Shown: in pieces, positions 21,865 through 41,316 of the stretch | Position numbering within the stretch: the first letter of the stretch is position 1 | How the letters are laid out: each line of letters begins with the position of its first letter | NCBI GenBank assembly: GCA_015233615.1 | Contig: JADFXJ010000023.1 | Coordinates: 1 to 41,340 of the forward strand | DNA from: Nitrospirota bacterium | GTDB taxonomy: Bacteria; Nitrospirota; Thermodesulfovibrionia; Thermodesulfovibrionales; Magnetobacteriaceae | Length of the DNA: 41,340 nt | Reading direction: 5' to 3' | The notes under the pieces: generated by a model | The model's input: only the letters and a program-made list of their open reading frames with translations | The model's database searches: none | Told to the model about the DNA's origin: nothing | Made by a program: the position numbers and the translations under genes

Positions 21865-22860
21865 ATGGTCTGTTCATACTGTAAAAAACCCATAAAAGAC
21901 TTCTACTTAACCGGCGGCAAGAACGTTTACCATAAGGAATGCTACTTCAACCACGTAGCCCCGCGGTGCGGCCACTGCGGCGAGGTTATAGAGGGCCAAT
22001 ACGTTGTCTCTTCCGGGAAAAGTTACCATAACCGGTGTTTCGATGCCCACGTAGCCTTAAAGTGCGACGTTTGCGGAGGGCCATTGTCGGGGAAATACTA
22101 TGTGGATTTCTACGGTAACAAATACCACGAGGCCCACAAGGCGAAGCTTACCGGCTGCTCCTGTTGCGGCCGTCTCATTTGCGAGGCTCTGACCCAGGGG
22201 GGCAGGTGCTACTCCGACGGCAGAGAGATTTGCACACTGTGTCACATGACCGCCATAAAGACGGACGGGCAGCTTCAGGCGGCTATAAAATATACTTCAG
22301 GGAAACTCGAAGGTCTGGGCCTGGGCCTTGACTTCCGATCCGTCCGCTACGAGATGGTGGACATAGACGGGTTGAGACGCATAATGGGCAATAGGTTTAA
22401 CCATAGCAGGAGCCAGGGGGCAATGACGCTCACCGAAGAAACGATGGTTAACGTCGTCGCCGGCAACCCCGGCAGAAGGGTTAGCAACCCCGGATTAACG
22501 CGCCGGAGCATCGCGGTTTACGTGCTGTACGGGCTATCGGCCATAAGGTTTAAGTGCGTCCTGGCCCACGAGCTTACCCACGCGTGGTTTGCGCTTCACT
22601 GCCCGCATCTTCCCGTTCAGGTGGAGGAGGGCACGGCCAACCTGGTTAGCTCGCTCATGCTCGAAATGATAGGTAACGAGGAGGCCCGGTATATTCTTCG
22701 CTCGATGGAGGATGACAATGATCCCGTCTACGGTGAGGGTTACCGGAGAGCCAGGAAACATTATGAAAAGGAGGGACTCACCGGACTTCTCGCCAACGTG
22801 TGTGAAAAGAAAGCTTTCTCAGCCGGCTTGTTTGCAAGGCTTGCCGACTGGCTAAGTTAG
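21865..22860 (+). CDS. DA1-like protein: LIM-type zinc fingers plus metallopeptidase
   Basis: The 331-aa product begins with LIM-like zinc modules: CSYCKKPI with YHKEC (Cys3-Cys26), CGHCGEVI with YHNRC (about 35-58) and CDVCGGPL with YHEAH, then CSCCGRLI and CTLCH. The C-terminal domain has the zinc peptidase motif AHELTHAW (His235, Glu236, His239), with VEEGTANLVSSLM about 15 residues later supplying the third ligand. This order, LIM then HExxH peptidase, matches plant DA1 ubiquitin-activated peptidases; bacterial DA1-like proteins are known but their substrates are not. No signal peptide or membrane helix is seen, so it should be cytoplasmic. It stands alone downstream of the small two-TM and Pro-rich genes. 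Confidence 0.85.
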   Translation: MVCSYCKKPIKDFYLTGGKNVYHKECYFNHVAPRCGHCGEVIEGQYVVSSGKSYHNRCFDAHVALKCDVCGGPLSGKYYVDFYGNKYHEAHKAKLTGCSCCGRLICEALTQGGRCYSDGREICTLCHMTAIKTDGQLQAAIKYTSGKLEGLGLGLDFRSVRYEMVDIDGLRRIMGNRFNHSRSQGAMTLTEETMVNVVAGNPGRRVSNPGLTRRSIAVYVLYGLSAIRFKCVLAHELTHAWFALHCPHLPVQVEEGTANLVSSLMLEMIGNEEARYILRSMEDDNDPVYGEGYRRARKHYEKEGLTGLLANVCEKKAFSAGLFARLADWLS

Positions 22861-23463: not shown

Positions 23464-23818
23464 TGTATCGAGGGGCATCGAATATCCGTGTCTATCTGGC
23501 GGCGGGCCCTACGGATATGCGCAAATCTATTAACGGGTTGTCCATTGTTGTTGAAGGGATTCTGTGGAACTTGATCCATTTTCAGGTTATCTCTTTGTAT
23601 TCAGCAATCGCAGACGCAACATAGTGAAGATCTTGTACTGGGATCATAACGGTTTCTGTCTGTGGCAAAAGCGTCTCGAAAAGGATCGGTTCAAATGGCC
23701 GGACATTCCAAACAGGACACTGGAGATAGGACGCAGAGAGCTCAACTGGCTGCTCGACGGACTTGAAATACACCAGAATAAGGCTCATGGAAGCCTTAAA
23801 TACAGTACAGTGTTATGA
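23463..23818 (+). pseudogene. tnpB: IS66-family tnpB (Orf2), frameshifted
   Basis: The first frame reads MYRGASNIRVYLAAGPTDMR then KSINGLSIVVEGIL, the IS66 TnpB start. An extra TG near 23561 then shifts the frame, and the protein continues as ELDPFSGYLFVFSNRRRN, KILYWDHNGFCLWQKRLEK and RFKWP to a stop at 23818. The total length less 2 nt is divisible by three, in agreement. IS66 TnpB is an accessory protein of unclear function; this copy is inactive. The main DDE transposase gene (tnpC) is missing apart from a possible stub. Confidence 0.85.
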
Positions 23819-25173: not shown

Positions 25174-25917
25174 ATGAAGATCGACCTGACCGGAAAAATA
25201 GCACTCGTTACCGGAGGAGCCAGGGGTATCGGCCGGGATATATCGAAAACCCTCGCCGCGGCGGGAGCCTTTGTCGTCGCCGTATACAATAGCTCTGAGG
25301 AGGAGGCGCAGAGCCTTAAGGAGGCTCTCGGCGGTACCGGAGACATATTCAGGGCCGACGTGTCGGAGGAGGCGCAGGTTAAAGCTCTCTTCAGTCATGT
25401 GAGAAAGGTTTTTAAGACCCTCGACATACTGGTCAATAATGCGGGCGTTATTAAAGACACACTCCTGCTTGCCATGGAGGCTAAGGACTGGGACAGGGTA
25501 ATCAACGTAAACCTTCGCGGGACGTACCTCTCAAGCCGCTACGCCTCCGAACTCATGATGATAGGCCACGCCGGAAAAATTATAAACATATCGTCAATAG
25601 CGGCCGTGAAGTGTACGCGGGGACAATCGAATTACGCGGCTTCCAAAGGGGGGATAGTCTCCTTCACGAAAGCTTGTGCCGTGGAACTGGCCCCCAAGGG
25701 TATCCAGGTAAACGCAGTTTTGCCCGGAATGATTGACACTCAGATGAGTCAGCGTGTGCGCAAGCGCGCCGGAGAGGAGATCGTTAAGAGCATCCCCATG
25801 GGGCGCATCGGCACTACGGTGGAGGTGGCCAACCTCGTGGCATTTTTGGCCTCACCCCTGGCCGACTACATATCCGGACAGGCCATAGCCGTGGACGGAG
25901 GGCTTACAGCCTCGTGA
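25174..25917 (+). CDS. fabG: 3-oxoacyl-ACP/CoA reductase, FabG type
   Basis: The 247-aa short-chain dehydrogenase has the NADP motif TGGARGIG (13-20), NNAG (88-91), a catalytic Ser in NISSIAAV, and YAASK (Tyr154, Lys158). The end [15 protein letters not shown] is typical of FabG, which reduces 3-oxoacyl thioesters to (R)-3-hydroxyacyl thioesters. In this setting it could serve as the acetoacetyl reductase (PhaB role) supplying the PHA synthase downstream. It starts the cluster fabG-acpS-fabZ-KS; its stop overlaps the GTG start of acpS. No distinct ribosome binding site was seen. Confidence 0.9.
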
Positions 25918-26330
25918 TCTACCATGGCATAGACATCGTGTACGTGCCTAAGTTCAGGGCGATTGCATCCAGGTGCGGAGCGTTTCTTACGGAACTGTTT
26001 ACCGCCGGCGAACTTAACGAGTGCATGGGAAGGCGCGAGCCTTTTATCTGCCTCGCCGGTCGTTTTGCCGCCAAGGAGGCATTCCTTAAGGCTCTCGGTA
26101 CCGGCTTTACCGCCTCCGGCGTGTTTAAGGAAATCGAGGTAATTTCGTCTCCTTCGGGCAAACCCATGGCACAGCTTACTGGATGGGCGGGGAAATTGGC
26201 GAATCTGCGCAAAACCGCATCCATCGCTCTTTCCATCTCCCATAGCGGGGAGTACGCCACCGCATCCGTTATTATTAACACTAGCACAAACACTTCGGAT
26301 GAAGCCGGATATTCGAAGGACGCAGGATAA
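25914..26330 (+). CDS. acpS: holo-ACP synthase
   Basis: The 138-aa product fits AcpS, which transfers phosphopantetheine to acyl carrier protein. Motifs are [10 protein letters not shown] (metal ligand Asp7), [19 protein letters not shown] (Glu55) and [16 protein letters not shown]. It starts with GTG overlapping the fabG stop (GTGA), so translation is coupled. The C-terminal tail ([17 protein letters not shown]) is extra to the family. A carrier protein gene is not found in the window, so the enzyme must act on an ACP encoded elsewhere. Confidence 0.87.
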
Positions 26331-26341
26331 AAAGATAAAAC

Positions 26342-26833
26342 ATGCGATACTTACTCGTAGACAGGGTAACCAAATGGAATGCAGGCGAAAGTATAAATGG
26401 CGTAAAAAACGTAGCCATGACCGAAGATTTTCTCGAATTTCACTTCCCTAAGAGCCCGGTTATGCCGGGAGTGCTCCTGCTGGAGGCCATGGCCCAACTT
26501 GCCGGATGGCTCAGGGCGGCATCGTCGGATTTTGGCGAGTGGTTTTTACTTCAACGCGTTGACAAGTGTAAGTTTTACGGCTTTGCCTTGCCGGGCGACC
26601 AGATAGAGATAGAGGTTAAGGCACTCGATAGCATCGATGGCATCGCCGGCGCCTCTGCGGATACTTCACCGGCAGCCGCATCGACGGCGAGCTTTAGCGC
26701 GGTAGGTTTCGTAAACGGCAAGAAAAAGGTCGTTGCCGAGTTTTCCGGAATCGTTACACCTCTTGGCGAACTCGAAGAAATGGAAGAGCAGCGAAGGTTC
26801 TTCAATATACTCACAAGGCAACTACAGTTGTGA
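26342..26833 (+). CDS. fabZ: 3-hydroxyacyl-ACP dehydratase, FabZ family
   Basis: The 163-aa hot-dog-fold protein carries HFPKSPVMPGVLLLEAMAQ with catalytic His34 and Glu48, then VDKCKFYGFALPGDQIEIEV. An Ala/Ser-rich insertion (about residues 100-120, AGASADTSPAAASTASF) separates the last strands, which is unusual. FabZ removes water from 3-hydroxyacyl-ACP, or hydrates enoyl thioesters in the reverse direction. It begins 11 nt after acpS and precedes the ketosynthase, so it is likely one transcript. Confidence 0.87.
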   Translation: MRYLLVDRVTKWNAGESINGVKNVAMTEDFLEFHFPKSPVMPGVLLLEAMAQLAGWLRAASSDFGEWFLLQRVDKCKFYGFALPGDQIEIEVKALDSIDGIAGASADTSPAAASTASFSAVGFVNGKKKVVAEFSGIVTPLGELEEMEEQRRFFNILTRQLQL

Positions 26834-26908
26834 AAGTATACAATAGAACATGATGCAATTATTTGGCAGGGGGCAGTATGACAGAGTGCAGTGTGACAGG
26901 GTGCAGTT

Positions 26909-28273
26909 GTGACCGGTAAGGGAGTCGCCATAACGGGCATGGGCCTTGTAACTTCCCTCGGCACGGGGGTTCAGGAGAACTTTGCCGCCGTTACCGGGCA
27001 TAAGACCGGCTTAGCCCGTTACCCAAGGGAAGGCTGCCCGGAGAATTTCCAGTACATGGGCAAGGTGAATCTGCAGCCATATCCTTTCGAAATACCGGTA
27101 AAGCTACAGAGCCAGATGAAGTTTCTAAACCGCGGATCGGTTCTTGGTTTTGCCGCGGCTCTCGATGCCATACGCCATGCCGGCCTGCATCCCGCTTACG
27201 GCAACCCTCTGCGCACCGGTGCCGGTAACCCTCCGCAAAAAGCCGAAACGGTTGAAACGGCCGAAACCGAAATGGCTGGCATAGCACCCTCCAGAAGGGC
27301 CCTCTACGTCGCATCCGGAGACCTTACGAAGGTTGGATACGACTTCATGTACCCGGCACTGAAAGACGCCACCCGGGGAACATTCCGCAACGTGGACACT
27401 CACAAACTCAACTCCTCCACGTTGAAAAAGGTAAACCCTTTCTTTCTCCTCGAATCGATTTCCAATAACCTTTTTAGCGTACTCAGTGCCTTCGTTAATT
27501 TCATGGGGCCAAACACGACCATAGCCACCCTCTCGCCATGTGGCGCGCAGGCGCTGGAGTTCGCGGCCCGCTCCATTTCCCAGGGCAGGGCCGACATAGC
27601 CCTGGCCGTAGGTTGTGGAAACTGGATAACGGAGGTGCCACTGTACGAGATGTCCGGTCTGGGGCTGTTGTCCCGGTGCTTAAGCGGCGAGAGATCGTTC
27701 AGGCCTTTTGACCGTACCAGGGACGGCTTCATTCCCTCGGAGGGGGGGGCGGCCATAGTGCTGGAGAACGAGCAGGTTGCAAAGCAGCGAGGAGCGACGA
27801 TACACGCCGTCGTGAGGGGATTTGGAAGTGCCATAGAATACTCCGGTGGCTCGTCCATAAGCGTTCCCGACATGGTTATCGAAAGGGTTATAGAAGGGGC
27901 TCTCAGGGACGCAGGCCTGGATCTTGAGGACATGGCCTTCATATGTCCCCACGGAAGTGCCACGGTCAAAGGCGACAGGTCCGAGTTAAACTCCGTTCGT
28001 ACTCTGTGTGGCGGGGCTGCCGTGCCTGTGTGCGGATTGAAACCCTATACCGGGCATATGGCGGCGGCAAGCGACATAGCCGAGGCGATTATAGGCGTAA
28101 TGGCCCTGAAAAATGGTATGGTTCCCGGTACGCTCAACTTCCGGGGAGCCGGTGAAGCCTTTAAAACCCTTCCCATAAGCGCCAATCACGTGCCAACCAA
28201 CGGCAAGGTCTTCGTAACCATAAGTTACGGCCTCGGTGCCCAGTCATCGGCAGTGGTGCTGGAGGCTGTCTGA
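26909..28273 (+). CDS. beta-ketoacyl-ACP synthase (KAS I/II type)
   Basis: The 454-aa thiolase-fold enzyme has the catalytic triad Cys211 (TLSPCGAQALEFA), His348 (CPHGSATVKGD) and His383 (KPYTGHMAAAS), with SYGLGAQSSAVVLEAV at the C-terminus. It starts ITGMGLVTSLGTG like FabF. The Cys context SPCGA differs from the usual TACATG/SSS, and an insertion rich in Ala/Glu/Thr lies near residues 102-125, so it is a divergent subgroup and its substrate is uncertain. The start is GTG with a weak ribosome site, within short GTGCAGT repeats. It closes the fabG-acpS-fabZ-KS set, about 160 bp before the PHA gene group. Confidence 0.88.
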   Translation: MTGKGVAITGMGLVTSLGTGVQENFAAVTGHKTGLARYPREGCPENFQYMGKVNLQPYPFEIPVKLQSQMKFLNRGSVLGFAAALDAIRHAGLHPAYGNPLRTGAGNPPQKAETVETAETEMAGIAPSRRALYVASGDLTKVGYDFMYPALKDATRGTFRNVDTHKLNSSTLKKVNPFFLLESISNNLFSVLSAFVNFMGPNTTIATLSPCGAQALEFAARSISQGRADIALAVGCGNWITEVPLYEMSGLGLLSRCLSGERSFRPFDRTRDGFIPSEGGAAIVLENEQVAKQRGATIHAVVRGFGSAIEYSGGSSISVPDMVIERVIEGALRDAGLDLEDMAFICPHGSATVKGDRSELNSVRTLCGGAAVPVCGLKPYTGHMAAASDIAEAIIGVMALKNGMVPGTLNFRGAGEAFKTLPISANHVPTNGKVFVTISYGLGAQSSAVVLEAV

Positions 28274-28279
28274 TTTGGC

Positions 28280-28353
28280 TTGACACACATTTCCATTTTG
28301 GTATAACACATTTCCATTTTGGCTTGACTTATTTCTTTGAAAGGATATATTAT
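28280..28353 (+). promoter_or_regulatory. tandem promoters overlapping 17-bp direct repeats, upstream of the PHA genes
   Basis: ACACATTTCCATTTTGG occurs at 28285-28301 and 28306-28322, 21 bp apart, that is two helical turns. TTGACA 28280-28285 with TATAAC 28302-28307 (16-bp spacer) makes one promoter. TTGACT 28324-28329 with TATTAT 28348-28353 (18 bp) makes a second, just after the repeats. The repeats could bind a regulator of PHA synthesis. Confidence 0.5.
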
Positions 28354-28411
28354 AGCCTTGTATTAGAAGTATTAGAAATGTAGTAATTATGAAGGAGGAG
28401 ACACTTCGGTT

Positions 28412-28435
28412 ATGAACAGGTCTTTTAAGCCATGA
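28412..28435 (+). other. 7-codon leader frame overlapping the phasin start
   Basis: After AAGGAGGAG at 28392-28400, an ATG starts MNRSFKP. Its TGA (28433-28435) overlaps the ATG of the next gene (28432-28434). The phasin-like ORF has no closer ribosome site, so reinitiation after this leader may set its translation. Confidence 0.4.
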
Positions 28436-28863
28436 GCGACGATTTATTAAAGAATCTAATGAACCTGTATTCCAATCCTTTGTTTAAGAACGCATTCAAG
28501 GATTATTTTACCAGGATGCAGGAAGAAGGCATGGAGGCAGCGAGAAAGGCATTTAATCTTTCGCCTGAAAAAAACAATTTCATGTTGGGGGCAAATGCCT
28601 TCGAGAAAATGATAGAGTTTTACTCCGACCTGGGCTTCGTTTCGCGGAAGAAGTATGACGAGCTTTTAAAAGAGAACGATGATCTCCGCAAGGAAAACGC
28701 CTTTTTAAAAGACACCATGCACAGGATGAACGTAGAGGTATTCACAGACGGAAGCAAGTCTATGCAGGAAGCATGGAAAAACACTCTCGAAAAGCAGACG
28801 GAAATGAGTAAGGAGCTAACAAAGTCTTTTTTCGACTTCTTTAAGGGAATGTCGAAAAAATAG
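28432..28863 (+). CDS. phasin-like PHA granule-associated protein
   Basis: The 143-aa all-helical product (MSDDLLKNLMNLYSNPLFKN, VSRKKYDELLKENDDLRKEN, ELTKSFFDFFKGMSKK) has a central coiled coil with amphipathic helices on both sides, as in phasins and PhaE/PhaR-like regulators. It lacks enzyme motifs and a signal peptide. Its place directly upstream of phaE and phaC and after the tandem promoter supports a role on PHA granules or as a synthase partner. The family match is by layout, not by a diagnostic motif. Confidence 0.6.
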   Translation: MSDDLLKNLMNLYSNPLFKNAFKDYFTRMQEEGMEAARKAFNLSPEKNNFMLGANAFEKMIEFYSDLGFVSRKKYDELLKENDDLRKENAFLKDTMHRMNVEVFTDGSKSMQEAWKNTLEKQTEMSKELTKSFFDFFKGMSKK

Positions 28864-29118
28864 TCTCCCTTCACTGCGGAGATACGTTGGCCGTCGGAAT
28901 AGTAGAGCAATTCGATAAATGAGGGTACGTTGGCAACTTCCCGCTAATAGTGGAAAATTGTGTTTAACGGCCTGGATACTATCGCTTAGCCAATCGTTGG
29001 CCAATAATTGTTTGGACAATAAATAGATAATCGTTTGGCCAATATCGAAAAGATTACACGGCAGAATGGCCGCTTTGGGGCGGCCAAAAAACCTAAATGA
29101 ATTGAGGAGGACAAAAAG

Positions 29119-30222
29119 ATGGAAGGTAGTGCATCTTTTTTCGACTCGTTGTTGAAGGGACAGAAAGAATTCATCGATAACTGGATGAGCACTGCCACGA
29201 ACATGCAAAAAACCTTTTTCTCCATGGGTATGCCAAAGGAAGGCGCCATGGGAGGGGACATATTTGGTATGTACAACTCGTGGCTTAAGACAATAGGCAA
29301 ATCCTACGACGAAATGATGAAGCTCCAACCCTCCGGCTTAGGGAAAGACACGGCGTCGAAGCTTTTTCGTAGTTTTGATTCATACATGAAGGTGTTCGAG
29401 TTATGGTCACCACTTTTGAGAGCCATGCAGGAAAACACTTTAAACCCGGACGCATATAAGGATCTCCTGGATCCGGCCAAGTACAAAGAGCTCCTCGACA
29501 AGGTTTTTGGCTTTACCTCGCCTGAGGCCGCAGCCGAGATGTTCGGACAAGCCTCCAAACTCATCGAGACCTGGGGCTCCGCAGCACAGAACTACGTTAA
29601 CCCCTGGGCGGACGCCTTACAGAAAAACCTGAACATATTCACCGACATTGGATCGTCCGCAGACCCTAATGCCAGCATGAACATGTTCCATAACCTCTAC
29701 AACGCCTTCGAGCATACCATCGGCAAAGTCTTCAAAACTCCCCAGGTCGGCAAGGACAGGGAGAAACTCGAACTCATACTGCGCACCATGGACATGTATT
29801 CCGTTTATATAGCCCGGAGCGCAGAGTTCCAGCATAACATGTACCTGGCCGGTGAGAAGGCCATGAAAAAGGTGATCGAGACTATCGCAGCAAAGGTTAA
29901 GGCAGGAGAGGAAGTAAAGAGCTATAACGAGTTCTACAAAATATGGAGCGACGTCAACGAGGCCCAATACTTCGAGCTCTTCAACACGGAGGAGTTCTCC
30001 AAAGTGCAGGGCATGCTTTTGGAGTCGGCACTCGAATTCAGGAGGCAATTCCACAAGCTACTGGAGCTCTTCCTGGTAGACCTGCCCATTCCGGTGCGCT
30101 CTGAAATGGACGACGTATATAAGACTATATACGAGCTCAAAAAGAGAGTCCGCGCCCTGGAGAAAAAAGGAAGCTCGAAAATTGAAAAGACTGAAAAGAC
30201 TGAGAAGGAGGTGGTAATATGA
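29119..30222 (+). CDS. phaE: class III PHA synthase subunit PhaE
   Basis: The 367-aa helical protein has PhaE features: MEGSASFFDSLLKGQKEFID, a WGSAAQNYVNPWADALQK segment, and the C-terminal VDLPIPVRSEMDDVYKTIYE and LKKRVRALEKKG coiled coil. PhaE partners PhaC to form active class III synthase that polymerises (R)-3-hydroxyacyl-CoA. AGGAGG precedes the ATG by 8 nt. Its stop overlaps the phaC ATG (ATGA). The 255-bp gap before it includes TTTGGCCAAT-type short repeats and a GGCCGC/GCGGCC hairpin (29068-29085) without a T-run. Confidence 0.9.
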   Translation: MEGSASFFDSLLKGQKEFIDNWMSTATNMQKTFFSMGMPKEGAMGGDIFGMYNSWLKTIGKSYDEMMKLQPSGLGKDTASKLFRSFDSYMKVFELWSPLLRAMQENTLNPDAYKDLLDPAKYKELLDKVFGFTSPEAAAEMFGQASKLIETWGSAAQNYVNPWADALQKNLNIFTDIGSSADPNASMNMFHNLYNAFEHTIGKVFKTPQVGKDREKLELILRTMDMYSVYIARSAEFQHNMYLAGEKAMKKVIETIAAKVKAGEEVKSYNEFYKIWSDVNEAQYFELFNTEEFSKVQGMLLESALEFRRQFHKLLELFLVDLPIPVRSEMDDVYKTIYELKKRVRALEKKGSSKIEKTEKTEKEVVI

Positions 30223-31337
30223 AAACACCTTTTTTAACTTTTGACACAAAAAACATCTCGAAAGAACTTAACGACCTGGGCCAGAAGATACTCAAAGGGT
30301 CCGAGACAATCATGGGGCTCGAAGATATAGACGTTGGCGTTACACCGAAAGACCTGGTCTTTCAGCAGGATAAGATGAAGCTCTACCACTACAAAAACGA
30401 AGGGAAGGTCACCTGCCCGGTGCCGGTGCTCATCGTGTACGCTCTAGTTAACAAAGAGTATATGCTGGACATTCAGCCCGACAGGAGTATAGTAAGAAAC
30501 CTGCTCAACCATGGTCTGGACCTCTATATAATAGACTGGGGTTACCCCACCAAGGCCGACATGTACGTATCCCTCGACGATTACATAAACGTTTACCTCG
30601 ATGACGCAGTAGACTTCATCAGGGAAAGCACCCACTCCGACAAGGTTAACCTCATGGGAATTTGCCAGGGTGGCACGTTCAGCGCCATGTATTCGTCTAT
30701 TCATCCGGAAAAGATTAAAAACCTGATTACCCTCGTTACTCCCATCGACTTCTCGGTGAAAAAAGGCCTCCTTTTTAACTGGTCAAGGAACATCAACGCC
30801 GATACCCTTGTCGATACGTACGGAGTGATTCCCGGCGACTTCCTTAACAACGGCTTCCTCATGCTCATGCCCATTACTCTGAACGTGGGCAAATACGTGG
30901 GCATGGTAGACGTCATATCGGACAAGGAAAAACTCCTCAACTTTATGAGGATGGAAAAATGGATATTCGACAGCCCGGACCAGGCTGGTGAGTGCATGAG
31001 GCAATTCATCAAAGACATGTACCAGGAAAACAAGCTGGCCAAGGGCACCCTTAAAATCGGCGACAAAGAGGTCAACCTCAAAAACGCTACCATGCCCCTG
31101 TTAAATATCTTCGCTAACGCAGATCACATAGTTCCACCGGATGCCACAAAACCGCTGAACGATCTGATCGGAAGCACGGATAAAGAATTATACGAGTTTA
31201 AAGGCGGCCACATCGGCGTTTTCGTTGGAGGAAAGTCCCAGAAGGAACTCGCCCCGGCCATATCGGCATGGCTCCACAAGAGGGCCGATGGCGAAAAACA
31301 CGCCAAGAAAGCTAAACCGGCAACAGAAAGCCATTAA
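30219..31337 (+). CDS. phaC: class III polyhydroxyalkanoate synthase PhaC
   Basis: The 372-aa alpha/beta hydrolase-fold polymerase has the lipase-like box GICQGG with nucleophile Cys149, plus Asp302 (FANADHIVPP) and His331 (KGGHIGVFVGG). These are exactly the catalytic positions described for Allochromatium PhaC. YIIDWGYP is also typical. The length fits class III, which needs PhaE; that gene overlaps it by 4 nt. It polymerises hydroxyacyl-CoA on cytoplasmic granules. The C-terminal Lys-rich tail (EKHAKKAKPATESH) is variable. A terminator follows 55 bp later, closing the operon. Confidence 0.95.
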   Translation: MKTPFLTFDTKNISKELNDLGQKILKGSETIMGLEDIDVGVTPKDLVFQQDKMKLYHYKNEGKVTCPVPVLIVYALVNKEYMLDIQPDRSIVRNLLNHGLDLYIIDWGYPTKADMYVSLDDYINVYLDDAVDFIRESTHSDKVNLMGICQGGTFSAMYSSIHPEKIKNLITLVTPIDFSVKKGLLFNWSRNINADTLVDTYGVIPGDFLNNGFLMLMPITLNVGKYVGMVDVISDKEKLLNFMRMEKWIFDSPDQAGECMRQFIKDMYQENKLAKGTLKIGDKEVNLKNATMPLLNIFANADHIVPPDATKPLNDLIGSTDKELYEFKGGHIGVFVGGKSQKELAPAISAWLHKRADGEKHAKKAKPATESH

Positions 31338-31391
31338 CAAAATATAAATCGGTAACGAAATACAGACCGGTAACGAATTGTAAATCTGCAG

Positions 31392-31419
31392 GCGGGCCAC
31401 CATGGCCCGCTTGTTTTTT
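31392..31419 (+). terminator. rho-independent terminator after phaC
   Basis: GCGGGCCA, loop CCA, TGGCCCGC (31392-31410) forms a perfect 8-bp GC-rich stem, followed by TTGTTTTTT. It lies 55 bp after the phaC stop. Confidence 0.85.
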
Positions 31420-31495: not shown

Positions 31496-31577
31496 GCGAG
31501 AGTGGCGGAACTGGCAGACGCGCTGGACTTAGGATCCAGTGCCGCAAGGCATAGGGGTTCGACTCCCCTCTTTCGCA
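31496..31577 (+). tRNA. tRNA-Leu (anticodon UAG)
   Basis: The 82-nt cloverleaf has acceptor stem GCGAGAG paired with CTTTCGC, discriminator A and anticodon stem CTGGA/TCCAG with loop CTTAGGA, giving anticodon TAG at 31530-31532. It has a long variable arm (TGCCGCAAGGCA) typical of class II tRNAs, and T-loop GGTTCGACTCC. CCA is not encoded. It reads CUN leucine codons, chiefly CUA and CUG. Confidence 0.95.
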
Positions 31578-38129: not shown

Positions 38130-39410
38130 TGTCATTTTTCACGTTAATTGAGCCACTAGTTTTTCAAGCTAATTGATCCACCTGCAGCACTCAATCGTCG
38201 ATTTTCAAAGTTGATAGTATAGTATCATAAATTGCCCTTTTTCTTTTTCACAAAAATCTTTTGTAGTAGCGGCTTGTGGGAATGTTAACAACTCGAAGCG
38301 TCCTTTGCTGAGAGTTGTTAAAAGGATTGTTGGAAACTCGTTTTTTGAGTTTTCAATAATCCTGCCATTTCCACAGCCGTCATTCCTTGTACTTAGGCGC
38401 CAGCTTACGTCTATAGCTTTCCCCCTCGATTATAATCTGATGGGCATTGTGGGCAAGCCGGTCAAGAGCCGAGTTAGCCATAATCGGGTCAACGAACAAC
38501 GGCGTCCACTCATCTACATGCCGGTTACTGGTGATTATAGTAGAGGCCCTGCCGTAACGCTCTACGACGACTTCATAGATATCGTTGGACTGTTGTTGCG
38601 TAAGTGCTTTCAAGCCGAAGTCGTCTATGATGAGCAGATCCATGCCGATTAACCTGACAAGTTCTTTGCCGAGAGAGTTATCCGCCCGGCTTTGGAGGAG
38701 TACCGTAAACATATCGTTTGCTTTTAGTATCAGCACGTTGCGTACCTTACGGCAGGCAATTAACCCCAGAGCGTTCGCGATATGCGTCTTTCCAACACCC
38801 ACAGGCCCGCAGAATATAACGTTTTCATGTCTGTCCATGAAGTTAAGACTCAAGAGGTCTTTTATCCGATCCCTGTCTATGGTTATTTGTGCATCCCAGT
38901 CAAAACGCTCGATTGTCTGTTGCGGATTGAGCCTCGCATTTTGAATACGCCTGTTCAGAGAGCCATGCTCCCTTCTGTCCACCTCGTCTCTCAACACAAG
39001 CTCCTTAAACTCGAAATGGGACAGTTTAACCCCCTTGGCATACGATGCTCTGTCTGCGAGAGTAGACAATACACCCGATAGTCTTAACTTTTTAAGAGTT
39101 TGCTTAAGTTCGTTGGTCAATTCCATTATCTGTTTCCTCCTTATGGCTAAAGTATGTGGCGGAACGTTGAAAACGTCCTTCGACAACCACTTTCCCTTCT
39201 TTATCGGGGGTTATATTACTTGTTAACACTTGCAGAACAATCTTCTCTACCCGATAAACGTTAACCAGGTCGAACGACAGGGCTCGCTGACATGCTTGCT
39301 CTACGCGGTCTTTTCCGTATTTTTCCCACAGACGTTTCAGCTTCTGTGCCTGCCGTAGTTTACACCAGGGGAAGACGCCGCTCAAGAGCTTCTCTGCGTA
39401 TTCCGGAACA
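38130..39410 (-). mobile_element. IS21-family element A (istB intact, istA truncated)
   Basis: The left end TGTCATTTTTCACG with two related terminal repeats (TTTTTCACGTTAATTGAGCC at 38135 and TTTTTCAAGCTAATTGATCC at 38160) is typical of IS21. The element carries istB and only the C-terminal part of istA. Its other end is replaced by element B. It cut the nuclease-like gene at 38129. Confidence 0.75.
38380..39126 (-). CDS. istB: IS21-family transposition helper ATPase IstB
   Basis: The product has 248 residues from ATG 39126, which has AAGGAGG 10 nt upstream; a longer frame to 39186 lacks one. It is an AAA+ ATPase: Walker A GPVGVGKTHIANALG, Walker B LLIIDDFGL, with IITSNRHVDEWTPLF and LAHNAHQIIIEGESYRRKL following. 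IstB assembles on DNA and stimulates the IstA transposase. It is full-length and so might still act in trans, but its own istA is truncated. Its start overlaps the istA stop by 23 nt as usual. Confidence 0.9.
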   Translation of the reverse strand: MELTNELKQTLKKLRLSGVLSTLADRASYAKGVKLSHFEFKELVLRDEVDRREHGSLNRRIQNARLNPQQTIERFDWDAQITIDRDRIKDLLSLNFMDRHENVIFCGPVGVGKTHIANALGLIACRKVRNVLILKANDMFTVLLQSRADNSLGKELVRLIGMDLLIIDDFGLKALTQQQSNDIYEVVVERYGRASTIITSNRHVDEWTPLFVDPIMANSALDRLAHNAHQIIIEGESYRRKLAPKYKE

Positions 39411-40638: not shown

Positions 40639-41316
40639 GTGGTAAGCATGTATATGTGGCAACAGGTAAAGGCACTGAAGTCAACAGGGTTATCGATAAA
40701 AGAGATAACGAGGCATTTGAAATTATCGAGAACTACGGTGAGGAAGTATTTAAGGAGTAACGAAGCACCACGTTTCAAGCAGCGCCGGACTGAGAAGGCC
40801 CTGGACAAGTATGAGGCGACGATTCGAGAGATGTTGGGGAAAGGCTTCATAGGTACGAGAATATATGAGGAATTGCGTGTTATTGGTTATAGCGGCTCCT
40901 TATCGTCAGTCCACCGCTATATTGCGTGTATTGTGGAAGGGGAAAAGAAGAAGGCCAAAGTAACGACGAGGGTGGAAAGTGAACCTGGGAGCCAAATGCA
41001 GTATGATTGGAAGGAATGGGAGTTGCCCGTAAGCGGAAAGGATATAAAGATTTACATTCACGAAGTGGTGCTGAGTTACAGCCGCATGAAATATTATGCG
41101 TGTTCATTGAGCATAACTACATCGGACGTGATAAGGGCGATAGAAGATGCAATACTTTATTTTGGTGGGATAGCGCCGGAGATAGTGATAGATAATCCTA
41201 AACAGATGGTCATAGTGCATGAAAAAAACGGCATAGTCCGGTACAACGAAGAGTTTCTGAAGTTCTGTGGCCTATATGGTCTGCAACGGGTCTGCGTCAC
41301 GAAATGGGGTATTTAA
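40639..41316 (+). pseudogene. istA: IS21 istA of element C, truncated at the window edge
   Basis: AAGGAGG precedes the GTG start by 9 nt. The 225 codons give an IstA N-terminus: STGLSIKEITRHLKLSRTTV (helix-turn-helix), SQMQYDWKEWELPVSGKDIK (first catalytic Asp) and EIVIDNPKQMVIVHEKNGIV (second Asp). After LKFCGLYGLQ the sequence stops matching, and the frame ends VCVTKWGI, so the Glu and C-terminal part are lost. The break is near 41285, 50 bp before the window ends; a frameshift or another insertion is likely. Confidence 0.8.

Follow-up and report, generated by a model that had tools for sequence, protein, structure and literature searches.

The window, a stretch of 41,340 nucleotides that constitutes contig C144 of a draft genome of a magnetotactic-type Nitrospirota bacterium (G000; 4.0 Mb, 220 contigs, 79.9% complete), carries two gene modules side by side, fabG-acpS-fabZ-KSc2 and phasin-like-phaE-phaC. 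We consider it probable that these modules are independent, the former being part of a lipid A acyl synthase and the latter an ordinary class III PHA operon, and that they became adjacent through rearrangement. The original prediction had joined the seven genes in one set, and had proposed either that PHA monomers are made by ACP-linked chain extension or that a separate lipid product is made beside PHA. The prediction was partly supported: the first alternative is not supported, because the two halves are not neighbours in relatives and the PHA operon has its own conserved promoter, whereas the second is favoured, because the fab-type block belongs to a type II synthase that ends in LpxL and is often followed by lpxB-waaA-lpxK. 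Hence, the proposed novel source of PHA monomers falls away, and the finding points instead to an acyl synthase that is linked with lipid A genes and occurs in phyla with little-known outer-membrane lipids.

As judged from family searches and coordinates, the seven genes are real and lie in the predicted order, all on the + strand; the observation as a whole was confirmed in part. The fabG gene (25174-25917) encodes a FabG-type 3-ketoacyl-ACP reductase (PF13561, 228 bits; TIGR01830, 262 bits, under the 297.75 cut-off) that has the catalytic residues Ser140/Tyr154/Lys158, and acpS (25914-26330) encodes an AcpS-type holo-ACP synthase (TIGR00516, 80.2 bits, above the 59.8 cut-off); orthologues of both were found at the same place in relatives. 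They are followed by a FabZ-like 3-hydroxyacyl-ACP dehydratase gene (26342-26833; PF07977, 71.9 bits; NF000582, 97.6 bits, under the 113 cut-off), whose product retains His34 and Glu48, and by KSc2 (26909-28273; PF00109/PF02801), which encodes a divergent ketosynthase-fold protein. After a gap of 159 bp the second module begins with a phasin-like gene (28432-28863, 143 aa), which also precedes phaE-phaC in relatives, and continues with phaE (29119-30222; PF09712, 125 bits, above 25.7; TIGR01834, 91.4 bits, under 154.95) and phaC (30219-31337; TIGR01836, 487.9 bits, above 365.3). The catalytic triad of PhaC, Cys149/Asp302/His331, was identified by motif. An intrinsic-terminator-like hairpin (31388-31414, +; 12-pair stem with a T run) lies 3′ of phaC, and a tRNA gene (31496-31577, +) stands directly 3′ of the operon. 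The phasin-like protein is 41-58% identical among relatives, and gave no match above cut-off with Pfam and NCBIfam-type models; that it might be a PhaE paralogue was rejected (hhalign probability 0.4%).

The conservation of the seven-gene order was then analyzed. A KSc2 search over 61 genomes yielded 20 orthologues (E < 1e-110), followed by paralogues near 1e-37. Of the 20 genomes compared from the family (Magnetobacteriaceae-like Nitrospirota), 16 have such an orthologue; the other 4 orthologues were found in as many genomes, from two further families of the order. In relatives, fabG, acpS and fabZ recur around KSc2. One family member with a 6-Mb genome (G006) gave 27 ketosynthase matches without an orthologue of KSc2. 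As for phaC, 19 of the 20 family members have it (71-87% identity); the order phasin-like-phaE-phaC is likewise repeated in the family, at other sites than the KSc2 block. Fifteen family genomes have both modules, and in only one, that of the window, do these adjoin. The gene 3′ of KSc2 was the phasin-like gene in none of the 15 other KSc2-bearing family genomes and in none of 62 loci from named genomes, and no PHA genes were found within the retrieved flanks of these 62 loci. Furthermore, in relatives the matches to the DNA across the junction are split between two contigs. Each half is therefore conserved separately, in all relatives the break in the order falls between the ketosynthase and phasin-like genes, and the adjacency observed in the window is probably a neighbour effect that arose by rearrangement in one genome; insertion-sequence genes are present nearby.

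In one complete genome (G008) 8 kb separate the modules, and the PHA operon precedes the KSc2 block, opposite to the order in the window. A 553-aa gene stands between them, and the same gene is found 3′ of phaC in sister genomes, which do not share the proximity of the modules. A functional link deduced from this single case was rejected on account of the distance, the opposite order and the sister genomes. The 8-kb spacing is likely due to chance, since a genome can have as many as three fragments of the cluster (an estimate, not a formal test), although G008 leaves some residual room for a link between the modules.

The PHA operon appears to have its own promoter. In the gap between KSc2 and the phasin-like gene, the sequence TTGACT-N18-TATTAT (28324-28353, +) is a match to the promoter consensus rather than a mapped start, and 13 of 16 genomes have TTGAC[TA]T ahead of their phasin-like gene (mean 0.83 and maximum 4 in base-shuffled copies). 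No regulatory element or RNA was accepted for the gap, the tRNA mentioned above being the only RNA gene found. By eye, a short direct repeat (ACACATTTCCATTTTGG, present twice) was spotted at 28283-28330 (+). Read-through from the ketosynthase gene is possible, as the gap showed no strong forward terminator. The phasin-like, phaE and phaC genes are the class III PHA operon that is usual for the family, probably transcribed from its own promoter. Like other class III operons, it has the PhaC and PhaE families and the catalytic triad; unlike them, it is led by a conserved phasin-like gene, and no phaA/phaB, which are usual although not required in class III loci, was found beside it in any of the relatives examined.

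The other module was placed in context by scanning 84,980 species genomes with a KSc2 alignment; the 62 loci obtained are spread over Nitrospirota, Syntrophobacteraceae, Desulfarculales, Terriglobia, Tectomicrobia and others. Loci from named records include those of Candidatus Magnetobacterium casense and Candidatus Magnetominusculus xianensis (both Nitrospirota), to which the window's genome is accordingly considered to be related. In many of these loci the order is FabL-like SDR, ACP, KS, CLF, FabZ, KS, FabG, AcpS, FabZ, KSc2, LpxL. The four genes of the window correspond to genes 7 to 10 of this set, in its 3′ part. The remaining seven are found on three further contigs of the window's genome (SDR-ACP-KS on C106, CLF-FabZ-KS on C150 and LpxL on C130), so that all 11 genes are present, dispersed over four contigs. 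The single lipid A acyltransferase-family gene of this genome, on C130, is 60% identical to the cluster LpxL type, and in a tree the ketosynthases of the genome group with the matching cluster types. The CLF-type KS had no Cys in 26 of 26 cases, whereas the other two cluster KSs retain it (17/17 and 30/30). The cluster SDR carries Y-x5-K, with Leu at the position of the ketoreductase Tyr, in 19 of 19 loci and in the copy of the window's genome; its best family is FabL, below cut-off. In addition, the cluster ACP ends in a tail some 100 residues long, the four Cys of which are arranged as CxxC...CxxC in 15 of 18 proteins and as CxC...CxxC in the other three; this Cys4 tail resembles a zinc ribbon (L105:6360-6923 and ACPs of related loci). 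No published description of the 11-gene cluster was found in the literature searched, most subscription journals excepted, and we are apparently dealing with a widespread, undescribed acyl synthase.

The original prediction had assigned an intact Cys-His-His active site to the ketosynthase of the window, and this did not hold. A profile of 19 KSc2 orthologues aligned without gaps to Pseudomonas aeruginosa FabF at the nucleophile, with Ser209 (TCG codon at 27533-27535, +) on the catalytic Cys. Ser209, His348, Lys378 and His383 were invariant in 60 of 60 homologues, whereas residue 211, a Cys in KSc2, is a Cys in 38 of the 60. KSc2 thus lacks the catalytic Cys of a condensing beta-ketoacyl-ACP synthase and keeps the active-site His/Lys/His, and the Cys-to-Ser change with the His pair kept is what is expected, at the sequence level, of a decarboxylating Ser-type ketosynthase. 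The KSc2 proteins formed a monophyletic group (support 100/100). A structure model (pTM 0.83; mean pLDDT 76, with low values around residues 97-120 and 177-182) supports a FabF/FabB fold, and this support extends to the fold only, not to the active-site geometry. Cys-to-Ser (KSS) ketosynthases in polyene loading modules are decarboxylases (PMC12843615), and because of this KSc2 may prime the synthase, making the acetyl primer as a malonyl-ACP decarboxylase. It resembles those enzymes in having Ser for the catalytic Cys with His/Lys/His kept, and differs from them in being a stand-alone type II protein that is encoded in a lipid cluster. An ordinary primer supply (FabH) is also possible.

The genes downstream of the cluster point to lipid A. 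At least one of lpxB, waaA and lpxK was found downstream of LpxL in 14 of the 62 loci, and in at least 12 of the 62 all three lie 3′ of LpxL on the same strand as lpxB-waaA-lpxK, directly adjacent at several. With NCBIfam models, lpxB (287 bits, above 190) and lpxK (217 bits, above 92) were identified, while the waaA matches (best, 324 bits) stayed below the equivalog cut-offs. This linkage is almost confined to Nitrospirota; downstream of the Magnetominusculus block, heptose-phosphate kinase- and guanylyltransferase-like genes, also below equivalog cut-offs, stand in place of these. The most likely role of the fabG-acpS-fabZ-KSc2 block, as far as sequence can tell, is in lipid A acylation. 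In the proposed pathway AcpS would charge the dedicated ACP, the Ser-type KSc2 would decarboxylate malonyl-ACP to give the acetyl primer, KS/CLF and the FabF-like KS would extend the chain, and FabG, FabZ and the FabL-like enzyme would reduce it. The LpxL-type acyltransferase would finally move the finished acyl chain, which is probably the product of the synthase, onto a lipid A precursor, its probable acceptor. The Ser-type KS and the Cys4-tailed ACP provide testable predictions on how the synthase starts and on what carries its chain.

The closest precedent is the rhizobial acpXL-fabZXL-fabF2XL-fabF1XL-(adh)-lpxXL cluster, which provides the very-long-chain acyl groups of lipid A (PMC11901934, PMC5613085). 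Both clusters have a dedicated ACP, a dehydratase, two FabF-like KSs and an LpxL-family acyltransferase, but the 11-gene set adds AcpS, FabG, a second FabZ, a CLF-like KS, the Ser-type KS and the FabL-like SDR, its ACP has the Cys4 tail, and its hosts are not alphaproteobacterial. The cluster ACP scored 41 bits against the 83 cut-off of NF005079, which we take to be the AcpXL model, and therefore does not qualify as AcpXL-type. The best model for the cluster acyltransferases was NF005120, which presumably covers LpxXL; the match was weak, 146-148 bits against the equivalog cut-off of 273 for lipid A lauroyl transferases. We tentatively propose, as a possibility that is less likely than not, a dedicated lipid A acyl synthase of Nitrospirota and Syntrophobacteria that is self-primed by a Ser-type KS, uses an ACP with a zinc-ribbon-like tail and stands outside the alphaproteobacterial VLCFA system.

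The product of the 11-gene set could also be a conjugated lipid with an outer-membrane anchor, of the aryl-polyene (APE) kind or another, which we regard as unlikely. KS, CLF, FabZ, FabG, a further KS, ACP and an acyltransferase are indeed shared with the E. coli ape clusters (PMC8253772, PMC8358021). As in the APE system (ApeO-ApeC plus ApeR), a KS is paired with a Cys-less chain-length factor, and a second KS, a ketoreductase, dehydratases and an acyltransferase accompany what would be an outer-membrane lipid. The 11-gene set differs, however, in its Ser-type KS and in its enoyl-reductase-type reductase, the FabL-like SDR with invariant Y-x5-K instead of Y-x3-K, which the APE system lacks, and its downstream neighbours are lipid A genes. 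Furthermore, neither an aryl-starter ligase (acyl-ACP synthetase) nor LolA/LolB-like genes were found when the families common to at least four loci were inspected at the level of sequence, and an RND-type exporter-like gene was seen near only 6 of the 62 loci, on the other strand. The literature searched held nothing on point on APE in Nitrospirota. That the fab-type genes provide the PHA synthase with (R)-3-hydroxyacyl groups, all seven genes forming a single PHA unit, is very improbable. The shared strand, the 159-bp gap with no strong forward terminator and the 8-kb proximity in G008 speak for it, and so does the state of monomer supply: no reductase reached the PhaB cut-off in G000, G008 or G009 (the FabG of the window was rejected as PhaB, with 214 bits against 302.1), and no MaoC/PhaJ-type hydratase was found in the 79.9% complete G000. 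Against it stand the single adjacency among 15 genomes and the lack of pha genes near any of the 62 loci, the conserved promoter of the PHA operon, a ketosynthase of the Ser type rather than a normal condensing enzyme, and relatives of the block that end in LpxL and not in PHA genes; on synteny, promoter and KS type, monomer supply by the block was rejected.

A thiolase is also encoded elsewhere in the window's genome (contig C162, 2846-4132; TIGR01930, 452 bits, above 240.55), which weakens the same reading. The statement that the set has no thiolase and no carrier protein is hence correct for the stretch and not for the genome, where the thiolase is on C162 and the cluster's ACP on C106. A normal phaA/phaB pair elsewhere, named in the original prediction as an argument against it, was found by half, i.e., one thiolase and no reductase at the PhaB cut-off. 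The literature searched gave nothing on point on PHA in Nitrospirota, or on class III loci with acpS or a KS. The junction itself might be a metagenome assembly error and not a real arrangement; the draft state of the genome (220 contigs, 79.9% complete), its being the sole one of its genus among those compared and a 26-bp repeat in the gap would fit with this. Nevertheless, both sides are of Nitrospirota origin, KSc2 groups with Magnetobacterium (90/90) and PhaC is 84-87% identical to that of the same genus, and GC3 differs little across the junction, so that we judge an error improbable.

Apart from the two modules, insertion-sequence genes are present on both sides of them, an IS66 Orf2-like gene (23564-23818, +), an IstB-like gene (38380-39186, -) and a gene for an integrase-core protein (40639-41316, +). 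The gene at 21865-22860 (+) encodes a DA1-like domain (PF12315, 59 bits) together with a LIM-type zinc-finger match (PF00412, 31 bits), which is unusual for a bacterium.
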